From an uncultured Bacteroidia bacterium (GTDB lineage Bacteria; Bacteroidota; Bacteroidia; Bacteroidales; Prolixibacteraceae), in assembly GCA_903897145.1 (NCBI GenBank), contig CAIUAN010000029.1, forward strand, positions 1 to 36,712: DNA of 36,712 nt, given 5' to 3'. Positions within the stretch are counted from its first letter, which is position 1. Each line of letters opens with the position of its first letter. The translations under genes and the position numbers were made by a program. Below are positions 13,703 to 20,803 of the stretch, piece after piece. The notes beneath the pieces were generated by a model. The model worked only from the letters and a program-made list of their open reading frames with translations. It was not told the origin of the DNA and did no database searches.

Positions 13703-14052
13703 GGTACGTATTTTTAAATTAGCTATTAAGTTGTTTCGCAATATTTTAGATCTCTAGATTTTGAGTTGAGGCCTAATTAGAGTTTTAAATATACATCTTC
13801 TACTGATACTGACAACTGACATTCGGAAGTTAAACACGCAGTTTTGAAAAATGTTTCGCTGAGATTATCTGATTTTGAGTATTAGGGGCTTTCTCCTTGT
13901 TTTTGATTTTCTGTTAGTCTATTTAAAAACAGGAGGTTAAATAAATTTAGAACTCTTTATTTGGCATTAGGAGATAAATAGCTGAAAATTTGGATAAATT
14001 ATTGTTCGAATGGTATTTTTTGTTTTTCTTTGTACTATTAACATTTGAAAAG
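13703..14052. other. Intergenic region between sod and the trp leader
   Basis: About 350 bp of AT-rich sequence between two divergent transcription units. I see no protein-like frame, tRNA or strong hairpin in it. It must hold the promoters for sod (minus) and the trp leader (plus); only the latter has a recognisable candidate. Confidence 0.6.
13989..14022 (+). promoter_or_regulatory. Candidate trp operon promoter
   Basis: TTTG at 13989-13992 is followed after 21 bases by TATTTTTTG (14014-14022). This is one base longer than the TAnnTTTG consensus. The 21-base spacing equals that of the tRNA-Cys promoter in this window. Transcription would start near 14028, about 25 nt before the first leader ATG. 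Confidence 0.45.
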
Positions 14053-14106
14053 ATGACAAAAAATAAATCAATATGGCTTTGGTGGGGCAACACTTTCCTC
14101 TGTTAG
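14053..14106 (+). CDS. trpL: trp operon leader peptide 1 (Trp-rich)
   Basis: A 17-codon frame encodes MTKNKSIWLWWGNTFLC and stops at TAG. Three of its codons are TGG (14074, 14080, 14083), clustered where a stalled ribosome would cover segment 1 of the downstream RNA structure. Tryptophan is among the rarest residues, so this density next to a terminator and the trp genes strongly indicates an attenuator leader peptide. Its role would be to sense charged tRNA-Trp, with no function for the peptide itself. There is no Shine-Dalgarno sequence, as usual in Bacteroidota. Confidence 0.85.
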   Translation: MTKNKSIWLWWGNTFLC

Positions 14107-14180
14107 AGGTGAAGCCATATTGTATTTTTTAAAATATAGTTCCGGCTTACCTGCTACAGGTAAGCCGGATTTTTATTTTT
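14069..14180 (+). promoter_or_regulatory. trp attenuator 1 with competing 1:2, 2:3 and 3:4 pairings
   Basis: Segment 1 (14069-14079, caatatggctt) pairs perfectly over 11 bp with segment 2 (14112-14122). Segment 2 can instead use 14107-14116 (aggtgaagcc) to pair with segment 3 at 14144-14152 (ggcttacct), with one bulged G. Segments 3 and 4 (14141-14153 with 14157-14169) form a 13-bp terminator. A ribosome stalled on the Trp codons at 14074-14085 covers segment 1, which frees 2:3 and prevents termination. A ribosome reaching the stop at 14104-14106 covers segment 2 and allows 3:4. This geometry matches classical ribosome-mediated attenuation. Confidence 0.82.
14141..14180 (+). terminator. Terminator of trp attenuator 1
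   Basis: A perfect 13-bp GC-rich stem (tccggcttacctg with its complement) on a three-base cta loop is followed by tttttattttt. It lies 163 bp upstream of trpE and has no gene to terminate other than the leader, as expected of a regulated terminator. Confidence 0.93.
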
Positions 14181-14202
14181 GATCAATTTTAAACGGTTCG
14201 TG

Positions 14203-14265
14203 ATGGAAGCAAAATTTTGGAATCAACTATATTGGCGTTGGCAAGCGAGTAAATTAATCAGATAG
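14203..14265 (+). CDS. Possible trp leader peptide 2 (Trp-rich)
   Basis: A 20-codon frame encodes MEAKFWNQLYWRWQASKLIR and ends with TAG. It has three TGG codons (14218, 14233, 14239), plus Phe and Tyr. It lies between the first terminator and a second hairpin with a U tract. The density of Trp codons and the placement suggest a second ribosome-sensing leader in series with the first. Evidence is weaker than for leader 1, because no neat segment 1:2 partner is obvious and translation is not proven. It could also be chance. Confidence 0.6.
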   Translation: MEAKFWNQLYWRWQASKLIR

Positions 14266-14327
14266 ACATTTTTGCATTATGCAGATTAGTGCGGTTTATC
14301 GGATCACGATAGGCCGTTTTTATTTTA
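14247..14327 (+). promoter_or_regulatory. Possible trp attenuator 2 with terminator
   Basis: The terminator stem is cggtttatcg (14292-14301) with cgataggccg (14307-14316), 10 bp including two G-U pairs and a five-base loop, followed by tttttatttta. A competing fold pairs 14247-14259 with 14284-14288 and 14294-14300. It would use the left arm of the terminator but contains a bulge and an internal loop. A ribosome reaching the leader 2 stop at 14263-14265 would cover 14247-14259 and favour termination. The hairpin ends about 16 bp before the trpE ATG. Confidence 0.6.
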
Positions 14328-14342
14328 TATCAACAAACATCT

Positions 14343-15752
14343 ATGAAAAATTATAAGTTCACAACAAGCGTTAGAGAGATCTTAGCAGATACGGTTACTC
14401 CAGTAAGCGTCTATCTTAAAATGCGTGATATCTTTCCTAATGCGCTTTTGCTAGAGAGCTCCGACCACCATAGTTTGGAGAATAGCTACTCTTTTATTTG
14501 CTTAAAACCTGAAGCATCTATTGAAGTTGCCAAGTTTAACTCTACTCAGAAGTTCCCAGACGGGACCATTGAGCTAAGTTCGATCACCAAGCCGGGTCAG
14601 CTTGCAGATGAAATGGAAACCTTCTTTGACCGATTTAAAGCAGAGAACACAATTCCGAGTCTTCCTGCCAATGGGTTTTTTGGCTATGTAAGCTATGATG
14701 GAGTTCAATATTTTGAGACCATAAAATTTAATAATCCGGTAAGTCCTGCGTATGAGATCCCTGAGGTCCATTACTCTTTTTACCATTATATTATTGCGAT
14801 AAACCATTATCAAAATAAAATACAGCTTATCGAGAACCTCTTTGAAGGAGAGAGCTCTTCGCTGAACGTTATTGAGGACTTATTGACTAGTCGGAATTTT
14901 GCCACCTTCTCCTTTGAGCCAGTAGCAGACGAAGTGTCTAATATTACCGACGATCAGTTTAGAGCGATGGTTACCAAAGGGAAAGAGCATTGTTTCCGTG
15001 GTGATGTTTTCCAGATTGTTTTGTCAAGGCAGTTTTCGCAACAATTTTTAGGTGACGATTTTAATGTCTATCGAGCTCTTCGTTCAATAAACCCATCACC
15101 ATATCTGTTTTATTTCGATTATGGAAATTATAAGATCTTCGGATCATCACCAGAAGCTCAATTGCAGATCCATGCGCGAAAAGTTTCTATTAATCCTATC
15201 GCTGGCACTTTCCGTCGAACAGGAAATGATGAGCAAGATCGACTCTTGGCCGAGAAGCTCTCCAAAGATCCAAAGGAGAATGCTGAACATGTGATGCTCG
15301 TTGACCTTGCACGTAATGACCTTAGCAGGAATGCCACCGAGGTTGAGGTAGAGCTTTTCCGGGAGGTGCAATTCTATTCCCATGTTATCCATTTAGTCTC
15401 TAAGGTGTCTGGAAAACTTCCTGAAGGATCAAATCCTCTGCGTGTGATGGGAGATTCGTTCCCTGCTGGCACTCTTTCTGGAGCTCCGAAATTTAAAGCA
15501 ATGGAGCTGATCGATAAATATGAGAATCAAAATCGTGGATATTACGGTGGATGTATCGGCTTTATTGGCTTTGATAATGTCTTTAATCATGCGATCATGA
15601 TTCGGTCATTCTTGAGCAAGAATAATACCTTGTTTTATCAGGCAGGTGCTGGCGTAGTAGCGGCTTCCAATGAGGAGAGTGAGCTACAGGAGGTGGTTAA
15701 TAAGTTAGCCGCTCTTAAAAAAGCCATCGTTATGGCAGCCGACATTAAATAA
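14343..15752 (+). CDS. trpE: Anthranilate synthase component I
   Basis: TrpE makes anthranilate from chorismate with ammonia delivered by TrpG, the first committed step of tryptophan synthesis. The 469-residue protein has the Trp-binding LLESS motif at 36-40, indicating feedback inhibition. The catalytic blocks GSSPEAQ, NPIAGTFRRTG, DLARNDLSRNA, PAGTLSGAPKFKAMELI and AGAGVVAASNEESE are intact. It belongs to the anthranilate synthase group and not to the PabB group because the trp operon follows directly. First structural gene of trpEGDCFBA; trpG starts 39 bp downstream. Confidence 0.97.
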   Translation: MKNYKFTTSVREILADTVTPVSVYLKMRDIFPNALLLESSDHHSLENSYSFICLKPEASIEVAKFNSTQKFPDGTIELSSITKPGQLADEMETFFDRFKAENTIPSLPANGFFGYVSYDGVQYFETIKFNNPVSPAYEIPEVHYSFYHYIIAINHYQNKIQLIENLFEGESSSLNVIEDLLTSRNFATFSFEPVADEVSNITDDQFRAMVTKGKEHCFRGDVFQIVLSRQFSQQFLGDDFNVYRALRSINPSPYLFYFDYGNYKIFGSSPEAQLQIHARKVSINPIAGTFRRTGNDEQDRLLAEKLSKDPKENAEHVMLVDLARNDLSRNATEVEVELFREVQFYSHVIHLVSKVSGKLPEGSNPLRVMGDSFPAGTLSGAPKFKAMELIDKYENQNRGYYGGCIGFIGFDNVFNHAIMIRSFLSKNNTLFYQAGAGVVAASNEESELQEVVNKLAALKKAIVMAADIK

Positions 15753-15791
15753 TGGATCTTCATTACGAAGAAGAAACTAAAAAAATTAAAG

Positions 15792-16358
15792 ATGAAAATA
15801 GTAGTACTAGATAATTACGATTCGTTTACTTATAACTTAGTGCATGCCTTGCGGAAATTCGAGGGTGTTACGGTTGATGTAAGACGAAACGATGAAATTG
15901 GCGAAAATGAAGCCGATGGATATGATAAAATTGTTTTCTCTCCTGGCCCCGGACTTCCTGAAGAAGCTGGATTGATGCCTTTGATTATTCGCAAATATGC
16001 TGGCAAAAAGCCTATGCTTGGTGTTTGTTTAGGCCATCAGGCTATTGGCGAATCTTTTGGCGGTACTTTAGAAAATATGAATGATGTTCTGCATGGCATT
16101 GCGACTCCAATTACGATCGTGGCGAAGAGCTATATTTTTGAAAATATGCCTGAAGTATTTGAGGCAGGTCGTTATCATTCGTGGATCGTAGAACGAAATT
16201 CACTTCCTGAAGTGCTAGAAATTACTAGCTTGGATAACGAAGGTCGCATCATGTCGTTTCAGCATAAAGAATTTGACATCCAAGGGGTTCAGTTTCACCC
16301 CGAATCTATCCTAACACCAATTGGAGAACAAATTCTCGAAAACTGGGTTAGACATTAA
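15792..16358 (+). CDS. trpG: Anthranilate synthase component II (glutamine amidotransferase)
   Basis: TrpG hydrolyses glutamine and passes ammonia to TrpE. It is a stand-alone class I amidotransferase of 188 residues with the catalytic triad Cys79 (GVCLGHQAIGE), His169 and Glu171 (QFHPES). The oxyanion motif SPGPG lies at about 50-54. It is not fused to trpD, unlike in some enterobacteria. In other contexts this family also serves PabB, so it may supply folate synthesis too. Confidence 0.96.
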   Translation: MKIVVLDNYDSFTYNLVHALRKFEGVTVDVRRNDEIGENEADGYDKIVFSPGPGLPEEAGLMPLIIRKYAGKKPMLGVCLGHQAIGESFGGTLENMNDVLHGIATPITIVAKSYIFENMPEVFEAGRYHSWIVERNSLPEVLEITSLDNEGRIMSFQHKEFDIQGVQFHPESILTPIGEQILENWVRH

Positions 16359-16388
16359 GTATTTTGCTTCACATTCAAAAAGTTAGAG

Positions 16389-17375
16389 ATGAGAGAGATA
16401 TTAAGCCACTTATTCGAATATAAGCGATTAACCCTTCAAGAGGCGGAAGAGATTCTGATTGAGATCGCAGGAGGCAAACATTCTGATTCTGAAATAGCGG
16501 CATTTATTACCGTATTTAATATGCGAACCATCAGCATCGATGAGTTGGCAGGGTTTCGCAATGCCTTGCTGAAAACTTGTATTCCTATTGATTTGACAAA
16601 CTTCAATACCATCGATTTGTGTGGTACTGGCGGAGATGGGAAAGACACGTTTAACATCTCAACGTTATCTGCATTTGTTGTTGCAGGTGCAGGTGCAACG
16701 GTATCTAAACATGGCAACTATGGCGCATCATCAGGATGCGGATCGTCTAATGTTATGGAATATTTAGGATATAAATTTAGTAGTGACCACGATCAGTTAC
16801 GGCGCGAACTTGATACCTGTGGGATCACCTTTTTGCATGCGCCGTTATTTAATCCGGCCATGAAAAATGTGGCGCCAGTGCGTAAGGCATTGCGTTTAAA
16901 GACATTCTTTAATATGCTGGGACCAATGGTAAATCCAGGAAGACCGAAGAACCAGATTGTGGGTGTATTTAACCTTGAGCTTGCTCGAATGTATAATTAT
17001 CTATATCAGAAAAGCAATGTTAACTATGCCATTATCCATAGCTTAGATGGGTATGACGAGATCTCTTTAACGGGCGATTTCAAAGTCTTATCCAATAAGT
17101 CAGATCGTATTTATTCGCCGGAGCAGTTAGGTATGAACTTGGTTAAGCCCGAAGAGTTAGCTGGTACTGGCGATGTGCCAGGTACTGCCGCGATCTTTAC
17201 AAAGGTTCTCGAAGGGAAAGGAACGGTTCCTCAAAACTCAGCTGTCATTGCTAATTCGGCGATGGCTTTAGCAACGTATTTCCCGGATAAGAGTCTTGAG
17301 CAGTGTATCGAAATGGCCACCTCTTCATTGCTTGGAGGGAAAGCTAAGAACGTATTTTCAAAATTAATCTCTTAG
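16389..17375 (+). CDS. trpD: Anthranilate phosphoribosyltransferase
   Basis: TrpD joins anthranilate to phosphoribosyl pyrophosphate. Residues 1-65 form the helical N-terminal domain. The PRPP-binding GTGGDGKDTFNIST starts at 79, followed by AGATVSKHGNYGASSGCGS and the anthranilate-site PVRKALRLKTFFNMLGPMVNP. The length of 328 is normal. It starts 30 bp after trpG, and trpC begins 2 bp after its stop codon, so translation is probably coupled. Confidence 0.97.
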   Translation: MREILSHLFEYKRLTLQEAEEILIEIAGGKHSDSEIAAFITVFNMRTISIDELAGFRNALLKTCIPIDLTNFNTIDLCGTGGDGKDTFNISTLSAFVVAGAGATVSKHGNYGASSGCGSSNVMEYLGYKFSSDHDQLRRELDTCGITFLHAPLFNPAMKNVAPVRKALRLKTFFNMLGPMVNPGRPKNQIVGVFNLELARMYNYLYQKSNVNYAIIHSLDGYDEISLTGDFKVLSNKSDRIYSPEQLGMNLVKPEELAGTGDVPGTAAIFTKVLEGKGTVPQNSAVIANSAMALATYFPDKSLEQCIEMATSSLLGGKAKNVFSKLIS

Positions 17376-17377
17376 GG

Positions 17378-18169
17378 ATGCGAACTATTCTAGACGATAT
17401 AGTTGAAAATAGAAGGGAGGAAGTTATTCGTCAACGAAAGCTTGTCTCGTTGGCTGATCTTAAGGCTAAGACAGATTTTAGCACTCCGCGGTTTTCGATG
17501 GCTCAAAGACTAATTGCAACTGGAAGTAGTGGAATTATTGCTGAGTTTAAGCGTATGTCACCCTCAAAAGGAATTATCAACGATCGTGTCGAGCCTCAAG
17601 TTGTGACTAAAGGTTATGCAGAAGCTGGTGCTGCGGGCGTCTCTGTTTTAACCGACAGTCGTTATTTTGGCGGAAGTACAGCCGATTTTAATGCGGCTCG
17701 AAGTGCTATCCCAGGCACACCCATGATTCGCAAAGATTTTATGGTTGATGAGTATCAAATTCACGAAGCTCGATTTATGCAGGCTGACGTTATTTTATTG
17801 ATTGCCGCCGTTCTTGATAAATCTGAAATTTCTCAGTATACTTCAGTTGCTCATGAGTTAGGACTAGAAGTTTTATTGGAACTTCACGATGAGTCTGAAC
17901 TTGAGAAGATCGATCCCCGCGTGGATATGATCGGAATAAATAACCGAAATCTAAAAGATTTTAAAGTTGATATGGAGCAATCTTTAAGACTCTTTGATCA
18001 GCTTCCAGCTGCCGCGATTAAAATTTCAGAAAGCGGACTCAGTGATCCTAAGACGGTGGATTTTTTGCGGAACCATGGCTTCCAAGGATTTTTGATGGGT
18101 GAGAATTTTATGAAGATGGAAAATCCGGCAGCTGCCTGCGCTGAATTTATTTCTTCACTGAAAATTTAA
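17378..18169 (+). CDS. trpC: Indole-3-glycerol phosphate synthase
   Basis: TrpC closes the indole ring from carboxyphenylaminodeoxyribulose phosphate. It is a single-domain TIM barrel of 263 residues, separate from trpF. Family landmarks include IIAEFKRMSPSKG (Glu56, Lys58), the MIRKDFMVDEYQIHEAR segment, LLELHDE, GINNRNLKDF and the phosphate-binding SESGL near the C-terminus. All expected catalytic positions are present. Confidence 0.97.
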   Translation: MRTILDDIVENRREEVIRQRKLVSLADLKAKTDFSTPRFSMAQRLIATGSSGIIAEFKRMSPSKGIINDRVEPQVVTKGYAEAGAAGVSVLTDSRYFGGSTADFNAARSAIPGTPMIRKDFMVDEYQIHEARFMQADVILLIAAVLDKSEISQYTSVAHELGLEVLLELHDESELEKIDPRVDMIGINNRNLKDFKVDMEQSLRLFDQLPAAAIKISESGLSDPKTVDFLRNHGFQGFLMGENFMKMENPAAACAEFISSLKI

Positions 18170-18181
18170 AGGGATAAGATT

Positions 18182-18811
18182 ATGACACTTAAAATTAAGG
18201 TCTGTGGGATGTGCCAAGCTTCAAATATTGAGGCTTTGGTAAAGCTCGGCCCCGATTTTATTGGCTTGATCTTTTATCCAAAATCAAAAAGATTTATAGG
18301 CAATCACATCTCTTCAGAGTTTGACTTGCTGATCCCAAGGAACTTGCCAAGAGTTGGGGTATTTGTAAATGAATCTTTTGACGATTTAATTGAAAAAGTT
18401 AAACTTTACAACCTTGATTTTGTTCAATTACATGGAGATGAGAGTGTCGCTTATTGCACCAGAGTAAAATCTTTAGGTGTCTCAAGTATTAAAGCTTTTG
18501 GTATTTCAGCAGATTTTGATTTTGCATCCATTGCTTCTTATGAAAGCGCGTGTGATTATTTTTTATTCGATACATCAAGTGCTCTTAGAGGTGGGACAGG
18601 AACAAAATTTGATTGGAATATATTAAATGAATATCAAGGCTCTAAATCTTTCTTCCTAAGCGGTGGAATTAATCCTGGCGATGTTGATGCTATAAGAGTG
18701 CTTAATCATACAAAATTATTTGCTATCGATGTCAACAGTGGATTTGAAGTAGAGCCTGGAGTTAAAGACATTAAAAAACTAGAATCTTTTATCCTTCAAT
18801 TGAGAGGATAG
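18182..18811 (+). CDS. trpF: Phosphoribosylanthranilate isomerase
   Basis: TrpF performs the Amadori rearrangement of phosphoribosylanthranilate. This 209-residue TIM barrel has the catalytic KVCGM motif (Cys8) at the N-terminus, then RVGVFVNE, FVQLHGDES, and the Asp-bearing FDTSSALRGGTGTKFDW, with SGGINPGDV binding phosphate. It starts 12 bp after trpC. Its sequence is more AT-rich than that of trpC, but nothing points to transfer. Confidence 0.96.
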   Translation: MTLKIKVCGMCQASNIEALVKLGPDFIGLIFYPKSKRFIGNHISSEFDLLIPRNLPRVGVFVNESFDDLIEKVKLYNLDFVQLHGDESVAYCTRVKSLGVSSIKAFGISADFDFASIASYESACDYFLFDTSSALRGGTGTKFDWNILNEYQGSKSFFLSGGINPGDVDAIRVLNHTKLFAIDVNSGFEVEPGVKDIKKLESFILQLRG

Positions 18812-18833
18812 ATAAACTTAAAATTTGACAATC

Positions 18834-20021
18834 ATGAACTATCAATCGGATGAAAATGGTTATTACGGCAGTTTTGGGGGAGCTTTTATCCCCGAGATGA
18901 TGCACCAGAATATTGATCAACTGCAGAATTCTTATATTGATATTATCGAAAGCAAGTCATTTAAGGATGAGTTTAAATTATTGCTTCAGGATTATGCTGG
19001 AAGACCATCGCCATTGTATTATTCCGATCGTCTTTCTGACCAATATAAAACACATATTTATCTGAAACGAGAAGATCTGAATCATACGGGTTCTCATAAG
19101 ATTAATAATACTATTGGACAGATTTTATTAGCAAAGAGGCTTGGGAAAACGCGGATCATTGCCGAGACTGGTGCTGGTCAGCATGGCGTGGCAACGGCTA
19201 CGGTCTGTGCAAGGGCGGGATTAGAATGCATTGTTTATATGGGTGCCGTGGATGTAGCTCGTCAATCACCAAATGTTGAGAAGATGAAAATGCTGGGTGC
19301 TGAAGTCCGAGCCGTGCAGAGTGGTAGCAAGACTTTAAAAGATGCCACCAACGAAGCAATTCGTGACTGGATTAACAACCCAGTAGATACTCATTATATT
19401 ATTGGATCTGCAGTTGGTCCGCACCCTTATCCAGATATGGTCGCACGTTTTCAATCGGTTATTAGCGAAGAGATTAGAGAACAGCTTAAGGCAAAAGTTG
19501 GTCGTGAAACACCTGATTATGTCATCGCGTGTGTTGGAGGAGGTAGTAATGCCGCAGGTTCTTTTTACCATTTTCTTAATGAGCCATCGGTGAAGTTGGT
19601 TGCTGTTGAGGCTGCAGGAAAAGGTGTTAATACAGGGGAATCAGCTGCCACAACTCAGTTAGGAAAACCTGGTATATTACATGGAAGTCGCAGTTTATTA
19701 ATGCAGACATCCGACGGACAAGTCGTTGAGCCTTACTCTATTTCCGCTGGATTAGACTATCCCGGTATCGGTCCTATGCATGCTAACTTATATACAACTC
19801 AGCGAGGACAATTTCTAAGTGCTACAGATACTGAAGCATTGGAAGCAGCCTTATACTTATCACAAAAGGAGGGAATTATTCCAGCACTGGAATCTGCTCA
19901 TGCCCTTGCCGCATTGAATAAAATCGAGTTTAAGCCAGATGATATCGTGGTTGTTAATGTCTCGGGGCGGGGAGATAAGGACATGGAGACATTTCTTAAA
20001 TATTTTCAAACAGTAAAATAA
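18834..20021 (+). CDS. trpB: Tryptophan synthase beta chain
   Basis: TrpB joins indole to serine using pyridoxal phosphate. It has Lys89 in HTGSHKINN as the cofactor lysine, then ETGAGQHGVATA, the phosphate-binding GGGSNA, and the C-terminal SGRGDKDM. I take the ATG at 18834 (395 residues, MNYQSDENGYYGSFGG). An in-frame TTG at 18825 would add only three residues and is less likely. It is the trpB1 type that works with TrpA, which follows after 5 bp. Confidence 0.96.
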   Translation: MNYQSDENGYYGSFGGAFIPEMMHQNIDQLQNSYIDIIESKSFKDEFKLLLQDYAGRPSPLYYSDRLSDQYKTHIYLKREDLNHTGSHKINNTIGQILLAKRLGKTRIIAETGAGQHGVATATVCARAGLECIVYMGAVDVARQSPNVEKMKMLGAEVRAVQSGSKTLKDATNEAIRDWINNPVDTHYIIGSAVGPHPYPDMVARFQSVISEEIREQLKAKVGRETPDYVIACVGGGSNAAGSFYHFLNEPSVKLVAVEAAGKGVNTGESAATTQLGKPGILHGSRSLLMQTSDGQVVEPYSISAGLDYPGIGPMHANLYTTQRGQFLSATDTEALEAALYLSQKEGIIPALESAHALAALNKIEFKPDDIVVVNVSGRGDKDMETFLKYFQTVK

Positions 20022-20026
20022 CAAAA

Positions 20027-20803
20027 ATGGAAAATCGAATTACCGAGCTCTTTATAAAAAAAGATAAGCAGATCTTGTCTATTTATTTTACTGCTGGCTA
20101 TCCTGAATTGAATGATACTAAAACGATAATTTCCACTTTAGAAAAGCATGGAGCTGACCTCATAGAAGTTGGTATGCCATTTTCTGATCCTGTGGCCGAT
20201 GGGATCGTTATTCAAAAGAGTTCTGAAGCTGCTCTTGAAAATGGCATGACCATTCATCTCTTATTTGAGCAGCTAAAAGAGATTCGCAAACACGTTTCTG
20301 TTCCACTGATTTTGATGGGTTATCTGAATCCCGTGATGCAGTTTGGGATTGAGAATTTTTGCAAAAAATGCAGTGAGATAGGGATTGATGGGACTATTAT
20401 TCCGGATCTCCCATTGGAAGTTTATGAGTCTGAGTATAAGGCAATTTTCGAAACTTATTCGTTAAGCAATATTTTCTTAATTACGCCGCAGACTTCAGAT
20501 GAACGAATTCGTAAGATTGACCGCCTTTCATCGGGTTTTATTTATATGGTCTCATCAAGTTCTACCACAGGAGCTAAAGAGGCTGTTGACCAGGAACAAA
20601 TAGCCTATTTTGAGCGAATTGACAAGATGTGCCTTCGTTCAAAGCGACTAATTGGATTTGGAATTTCAGACAATCGCACCTTTCAACGAGCTTGTAGCTA
20701 TTCGAATGGTGCAATCATTGGCAGTGCATTTATTACTGCAATTACAGGCGATGGAGAAGTAGAGAATAAGGTTAGCCAGTTTATGAAAAAGTTTGATTCC
20801 TAA
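20027..20803 (+). CDS. trpA: Tryptophan synthase alpha chain
   Basis: TrpA splits indole-3-glycerol phosphate and channels indole to TrpB. The catalytic pair is present: Glu47 (LIEVGMPFSDP) and Asp58 (VADGIVIQ). Other landmarks are LMGYLNPVMQFG, GTIIPDLPLE, the MVSSSSTTGAK loop and GFGISD. The length of 258 is standard. It is the last trp gene; no strong terminator follows, but a promoter match for the next gene does. Confidence 0.96.
   Translation: MENRITELFIKKDKQILSIYFTAGYPELNDTKTIISTLEKHGADLIEVGMPFSDPVADGIVIQKSSEAALENGMTIHLLFEQLKEIRKHVSVPLILMGYLNPVMQFGIENFCKKCSEIGIDGTIIPDLPLEVYESEYKAIFETYSLSNIFLITPQTSDERIRKIDRLSSGFIYMVSSSSTTGAKEAVDQEQIAYFERIDKMCLRSKRLIGFGISDNRTFQRACSYSNGAIIGSAFITAITGDGEVENKVSQFMKKFDS

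Follow-up and report, generated by a model that had tools for sequence, protein, structure and literature searches.

Two predicted tryptophan attenuators in series before the trp operon of Prolixibacteraceae

The trp operon of an uncultured bacterium of the family Prolixibacteraceae (Bacteroidota) is predicted, with a probability that we put at about 0.8, to be controlled by two ribosome-mediated tryptophan (Trp) transcription attenuators in series. The window, i.e. the whole 36,712-nt stretch of DNA that was analysed, contains a 601-nt interval before trpE that is bounded at its other end by a divergent Fe/Mn superoxide dismutase gene (sod), and in which leader 1, terminator 1, leader 2 and terminator 2 follow one another on the + strand. 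A sequence-only reading of the window had described two short frames of 17 and 20 codons, each with three TGG codons and each followed by a terminator; both pairs are seen at 14053-14327 and this observation is confirmed. Three features by which an attenuator is recognized from sequence, namely a leader ORF with Trp codons, a predicted intrinsic terminator and a covarying antiterminator exclusive with it, are present.

From the ORFs, Trp codons, terminators, exclusive pairings, covariation and distribution set out below we infer the following course of translation, stalling and termination. A ribosome would trail RNA polymerase through leader 1. With ample Trp it would reach the stop codon and cover region 2, the 3:4 terminator would form and the transcript would end near 14179, whilst with scarce Trp it would stall on the Trp codons, the 2:3 antiterminator would form and the polymerase would continue. 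Leader 2 would then repeat the test for charged tRNA-Trp before trpE is reached, and expression would be the product of two read-through probabilities, so that the response would be steeper and cover a broader range than with a single gate.

Architecture of the trpE leader region

The coordinates of the predicted features are collected in Table 1.

Table 1. Predicted features of the trp leader region and associated genes. Positions are those of the window unless a locus is named.
Feature	Position	Strand	Details
Leader-transcript promoter (putative)	14002..14032	+	TTG 14002-14004, 20 nt, TTTCTTTG 14025-14032
Leader peptide 1, MTKNKSIWLWWGNTFLC	14053..14106	+	17 codons; ATG 14053, stop 14104-14106
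Unit 1 core hairpin (regions 1:2)	14069..14122	+	Fold -22.2 kcal/mol
Antiterminator 1 (regions 2:3)	14105..14155	+	14105-14116 pairs with 14144-14155
Predicted intrinsic terminator 1 (regions 3:4)	14141..14179	+	U tract 14170-14179
Leader peptide 2, MEAKFWNQLYWRWQASKLIR	14203..14265	+	20 codons; ATG 14203, stop 14263-14265
Antiterminator 2 (regions 2:3)	14261..14300	+	14261-14267 (over stop codon) pairs with 14294-14300
Predicted intrinsic terminator 2	14291..14327	+	U tract 14318-14327
trpE, trpG, trpD, trpC, trpF, trpB, trpA	14343..20803	+	Pfam matches and ORFs
mntA-hepT-type genes	L304 344-968; L305 739-1065; L306 40-366 with L307	-	Pfam matches on the L304 pair only

In leader 1 the TGG codons lie at 14074, 14080 and 14083. 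The core hairpin of this unit is made up of stems P1 (14069-14079 with 14112-14122) and P2 (14097-14101 with 14105-14109), antiterminator 1 surrounds an A+U hairpin at 14119-14140 (fold of 14105-14157, -16.0 kcal/mol), and the stem of terminator 1 (14141-14169, 13 bp, -22.9 kcal/mol) is followed by TTTTTATTTT. The TGG codons of leader 2 lie at 14218, 14233 and 14239; antiterminator 2 stacks on a hairpin at 14273-14293 (fold of 14258-14303, -11.2 kcal/mol), and the stem of terminator 2 (14291-14317, 11 bp, -15.3 kcal/mol) is followed by TTTTATTTTA. Directly 3' of unit 2 comes trpE (14343-15752). Frames that are counterparts of leader 2 are present in the same genus and family, and leaders of the NNWWW type occur in other Bacteroidia.

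The TTG and TTTCTTTG pair upstream of leader 1, which we take to be of the Bacteroidota -33/-7 type, is the probable promoter of the leader transcript; a -7-like element was found at most 60 nt from the leader-1 ATG in 70 of 72 relatives, using a loose pattern that carries no chance control. Neither leader unit matched an Rfam family at gathering thresholds, and a T-box or other known RNA family was rejected on this ground. A tRNA gene at 293-363 on the - strand is the only Rfam match of the window at these thresholds.

Chance is a poor source of such an arrangement. When the sod-trpE interval was shuffled with its dinucleotides preserved, and the ORFs counted were those that start with ATG, span 8-40 codons and hold at least three Trp codons, two Trp-rich ORFs appeared in 3 of 20,000 shuffles and one in 349 of 20,000. 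Amongst 1,090 shuffled upstream regions of the family none contained two leader-plus-terminator units, and a single unit was seen three times with at least two Trp codons required and not once (0/1,090) with at least three.

Alternative folds and covariation of the antiterminators

In both units region 2 overlaps or immediately follows the stop codon, as in the classic mechanism, and antiterminator and terminator are mutually exclusive. When the leader was masked as far as the Trp codons and the transcript was cut off in the loop of the terminator, the RNA folded into the antiterminator (-17.3 kcal/mol in unit 1 and -13.0 kcal/mol in unit 2); when the mask extended through the stop codon, the terminator formed. 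With the full RNA and a stalled ribosome the equilibrium still favours the terminator in both units, and the attenuation model therefore depends on the antiterminator forming first, in the order of synthesis. The 1:2 pairing of unit 2 is weak in the window, at -9.6 kcal/mol.

Conservation of the pairings between genera was assessed by a swap test, in which the pairing energy of region 2 with its own terminator arm is compared with that obtained with arms from other genera. For antiterminator 1 the own arm gave -15.1 kcal/mol against -11.1 kcal/mol for foreign arms and was the better in 67/72 cases (59/72 with the first region-2 window, the higher count coming from a later one), and none of 20,000 permutations across nine genera was as good. 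For antiterminator 2 the values were -13.2 and -11.4 kcal/mol, the own arm being better in 75/101, with 0/20,000 permutations as good across 20 genera and 2/20,000 after removal of genus g22, in which the one-unit member is similar to unit 1. This unit 2 signal arose after the window used for region 2 had been shifted to take in the end of the leader, and with the first, badly placed window there was no signal at the genus level (1,730/20,000). In the window species itself antiterminator 2 comprises 7 bp (GAUAGAC/GUUUAUC), for which the own arm scored -10.0 as against -4.4 with those of other genera. The antiterminators of both units thus covary between genera, which is the pattern of compensatory change that the sequence-only reading had proposed to look for in the hairpins of related genomes.

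The 1:2 pairings gave no swap signal in unit 1 (14,411/20,000 permutations), because the helix hardly varies, or in unit 2 (4,653/20,000). The consensus of P1 in the unit 1 core has 14 pairs, three of them with changes on both sides.

Distribution in Prolixibacteraceae and other Bacteroidia

TrpE was matched in 113 of the 118 Prolixibacteraceae genomes of at least 85% completeness. A few of these matches were not fetched, some less complete genomes of the window's genus were added, and the family sample comprised 112 trpE upstream regions, 109 of which were long enough to score. With at least two Trp codons required per leader, two leader-plus-terminator units were found in 74 of the 109, one in 27 and none in eight; with at least three, the counts were 69, 30 and 10. 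In this comparison, which the sequence-only reading had suggested, both Trp-codon frames and both hairpins are thus retained in most of the relatives sampled. Within the window's own genus unit 1 is present in all 14 readable trpE upstreams and a recognizable leader 2 in 13 of them, the second unit of L017 being degenerate. The Trp_repressor family (TrpR) was above its cut-off in none of the 118 Prolixibacteraceae genomes, with one weak sub-threshold match, whilst in a 14-genome control it was matched in E. coli and B. subtilis.

Outside the family, trpE upstreams were taken at E <=1e-80 from 158 genomes of the order and 119 of the class, and 91 were usable. Here one unit was found in 62, none in 25 and two in four upstreams when at least two Trp codons were required, and 50, 38 and three, respectively, when at least three were. 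Since a single unit is commonest outside the family, we read unit 2 as the common predicted Trp attenuator of the Bacteroidia and unit 1 as an upstream unit that this family has added. From the sequence alone unit 1 had been graded as strong and unit 2 as suggestive; it is unit 2 that is the widespread one.

Doubling has occurred in Prolixibacteraceae and apparently elsewhere too. Three genomes from three other Bacteroidia families (L169, L185 and L226) have a clean leader-terminator-leader-terminator series before trpE, with leaders of the WWW, WWHW or WWR type, which suggests duplication of the common unit; they hint that doubling may have arisen more than once. L180, also scored as having two units, was set aside, its frame apparently being a chance one within a coding region.

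In genus g22 (L071, L072, L290 and L291) the upstream leaders are more generic (NWSWW, VWFWW, IWSWW and NNWWWP), the terminator of the upstream leader resembles that of unit 1 (GCCTGCTTCTT), and L072 retains one unit only. With this terminator, such leaders may represent an intermediate form linking the common unit with unit 1.

The variation among relatives also bears on whether both gates operate in the window species. It is unlikely, in our judgement, that one of them alone is functional there and the other a relic, although unit 1 could suffice. In 71 of 101 family upstreams the unit 2 antiterminator includes a CGTG/CACG part. This part is absent from the small-genome subgroup of the window (L001, L004 and L005), in which unit 2 has diverged and, unlike that of its relatives, has neither the CGTGA partner nor a WxWRWQDYFLQT-like ending, its 1:2 pairing is weak and unit 1 is intact; other lineages have lost a gate, as in L072 and in the 15 upstreams described below that keep the unit 1 core only. 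In the window, nevertheless, unit 2 has kept its three Trp codons, its terminator is strong and its 7-bp antiterminator fits its own arm well, which argues for two working gates.

Genes of the mntA-hepT type lie between the two units in some relatives (Table 1). G116 has a pair (nucleotidyltransferase plus HepT-like) between terminator 1 and leader 2, G055 has at the same place an mntA-like gene and a hepT-like frame for which no intact ORF was listed, and in G066 gate 1 and an mntA-like gene are on one contig and the hepT end and unit 2 on another, the order of the two being inferred. The hepT end overlaps the start of leader 2 (ATGA) in L304 and L305, and L045 (genus g15) has a possible short remnant at the same place between the gates. 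From this position after gate 1, we propose, such genes would be expressed only when transcription passes gate 1.

The hairpin core of unit 1

The core of unit 1 changes little across the family. It is a hairpin whose G-rich internal loop is nearly invariant and whose apical loop varies; its commonest form reads AAATACAATATGGCTTCCGTGGTGGGGTCTTC, a variable loop, GAAG and AGCCATATTGGTATTT. A pattern search found it in 87 family upstreams. Terminator 1 accompanies it in 72 of these, and in each of the 72 an in-frame ATG precedes the first Trp codon by 21-30 nt (a nearer one is present as well in L017); all 72 have three or four Trp codons and a stop 27-39 nt past the first of them. In the other 15 terminator 1 is missing and no in-frame ATG lies within 45 nt, and no upstream is mixed. 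This joint presence or loss of start codon and terminator supports attenuation, being what is expected if leader translation and terminator cooperate.

In the 15 core-only upstreams (L054, L062, L063, L065, L067, L070, L073-L078, L083, L293 and L294) the core stands directly before leader 2. In L070 an in-frame ATG lies 90 nt upstream, and L077 has a TTG 30 nt away. Starting at the AUG of the core itself, a frame enters leader 2 in five of the 15 (L054, L070, L077, L083 and L293), and in L083 and L078 the frame from this AUG reads the core's Trp codons. The 25 family upstreams in which the pattern found no core comprise short contigs, G116, G055, G066, four from genus g22 and those of single-unit genera; in G116, G055 and G066 the core lies further upstream or on another contig, and in the four g22 upstreams the units have diverged or are missing. 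A quick TrpE tree with 116 rows requires three changes to account for the core-only state if the coreless rows are omitted and seven if they are included, one core-only branch sitting in an unresolved fork.

Conservation of the core was measured on upstreams from the family survey, admitted by a much looser core pattern; because the exact pattern presets 14 letters of the 26-nt stretch compared, the nine core-only loci that it had returned were not used. In 11 of the 15 core-only upstreams the core begins with an identical stretch of 26 nt; these are L065 and the complete set of 10 that were fetched from g8, g14 and g20, every one of which carries the core. Among these 11, mean identity is 0.53 over the preceding 40 nt, and the fourfold sites of trpE average 0.40. 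In a gapless comparison of all 15 the corresponding values are 0.83 for the 26 nt, 0.44 for the upstream 40 nt and 0.34 for the fourfold sites, and in the four remaining upstreams (genera g9 and g12) the 26-nt stretch does vary.

A covariance model of the core (R1) found it in 90 of the 118 family genomes, at one locus each, with eight extra matches that are the antisense of the same hairpin. Amongst 294 genomes of the order no core was found outside the family, both matches being family members; stricter filters, by which weak matches are lost, applied to the family search and to that of the order alike. A scan of the genome collection with the exact pattern, which demands exact letters and misses diverged cores, returned 74 stretches. 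In 63 of them trpE lies 228-564 nt downstream on the same strand, so that the core precedes trpE in 63/63 stretches with trpE in view; four look like chance (L109, L124, L138 and L139) and seven are motif-like with trpE beyond the stretch. The genera represented are Draconibacterium, Maribellus, Mariniphaga, Sunxiuqinia, Mangrovibacterium, Prolixibacter, Gaoshiqia and other Prolixibacteraceae.

A DNA operator was considered as an explanation of the core and rejected, an RNA hairpin giving the better fit to its compensatory apical stem and variable arm spacing. In the core-only upstream L065 (= L142) this stem has changed from UUCUU/AAGAA to UCCCG/CGGGA, which is compensatory.

The retention of the core in 15 upstreams that have neither a nearby start codon nor terminator 1 is outside what attenuation explains, and it suggests a further role of the core beyond the reading of the leader. 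A core that persists after its leader and terminator are lost may point to a second layer of Trp control that is as yet undescribed. One form that this could take, on which we are doubtful, is a new structured RNA that would sense Trp status untranslated (as free Trp, tRNA-Trp or a protein), combined in most sampled Prolixibacteraceae with a leader ORF and terminator into an aptamer/attenuator hybrid, and still working alone on leader 2 or on the fate of the transcript in Sunxiuqinia, Mangrovibacterium, Gaoshiqia and relatives.

It is quite improbable that ligand or tRNA sensing is the primary function of the core, as in a riboswitch or T box, with the Trp codons incidental and the terminator serving as expression platform. 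The near-invariant internal loop, the core-only upstreams and the identity of the 26 nt in 11 of them, at 40% identity of the trpE fourfold sites, all speak for it. The same 26 nt vary in genera g9 and g12, however, the core occurs at one locus per genome and always before trpE where this gene can be viewed, and the residues between the Trp codons vary (WLP, WLS, WCP, WHL and WLW) whilst Trp itself is constant. Moreover, terminator 1 never occurs without an in-frame ATG and a nearby in-frame stop (72/72), and such ATG/stop coupling is, in a passage of PMC10272879, the pattern by which ilvB-II was classed as a uORF and not as a riboswitch.

Leader products can also act at a distance. The leader sRNA rnTrpL and the peptide peTrpL of Sinorhizobium act in trans. 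A trans role for a trp leader peptide is reported in PMC7298713. Termination in unit 1 would release a small RNA that extends some 140 nt from its putative start and includes the hyperconserved segment. It is nevertheless very improbable that this RNA, or the peptide of unit 1, has a role in trans by which the core is conserved, as the core is conserved even where terminator 1 is gone.

Comparison with known systems

The classic attenuator is E. coli trpL, and his, leu, ilv, thr and phe leaders are also known from Proteobacteria. The units described here resemble trpL in the short leader with clustered regulatory codons, the exclusive predicted 1:2, 2:3 and 3:4 pairings, the predicted intrinsic terminator before trpE and the position of region 2 beneath a ribosome at the stop codon. 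They differ from it in that trpL is one unit whereas two stand in series here, in a family in which TrpR was not found, and in the sequence of leader and RNA (no Rfam match at gathering thresholds). Firmicutes trp operons with tandem T boxes also place two tRNA-Trp-responsive terminators in series. T boxes, however, read uncharged tRNA directly and without translation, whilst the leaders here would be translation-based. A 2008 survey lists no T box among seven Bacteroidetes/Chlorobi genomes (PMC2494555).

Trp attenuation had been ascribed in the sequence-only reading to Proteobacteria, where it does occur; PMC4833913 mentions it for Actinobacteria as well (Corynebacterium and Streptomyces). 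We recognized no trp attenuator from Bacteroidota and no serial Trp attenuators among the matches listed in the open-access literature, outside which most subscription papers lie. A comparative survey of attenuation by Lopatovskaya et al. in 2010 may list single Bacteroidetes attenuators, and predictions of single attenuators in Bacteroidota may well exist elsewhere already.

The attenuator of Corynebacterium ilvB-II, going by the parts of PMC10272879 that describe it, is likewise a conserved RNA motif with an in-frame uORF and an attenuator, present once per genome. It is a single unit with branched-chain codons, whereas here part of the motif outlives the start codon.

Two attenuators under different signals are described for Salmonella mgtCBR, whose tandem attenuators sense ATP and proline according to PMC3641672, do not resemble intrinsic terminators and form what the authors there call a singular example. 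As in mgtCBR, one leader mRNA has two short ORFs and two attenuators; unlike it, the trp leaders both have Trp codons and both have predicted intrinsic terminators. If the serial attenuation proposed here is right, a family without detected TrpR controls trp by ribosome-mediated attenuation with the device doubled, and doubling would naturally multiply both the range and the steepness with which an attenuator responds to a single amino acid. The arrangement before trpE offers a direct test case for serial attenuation with one signal.
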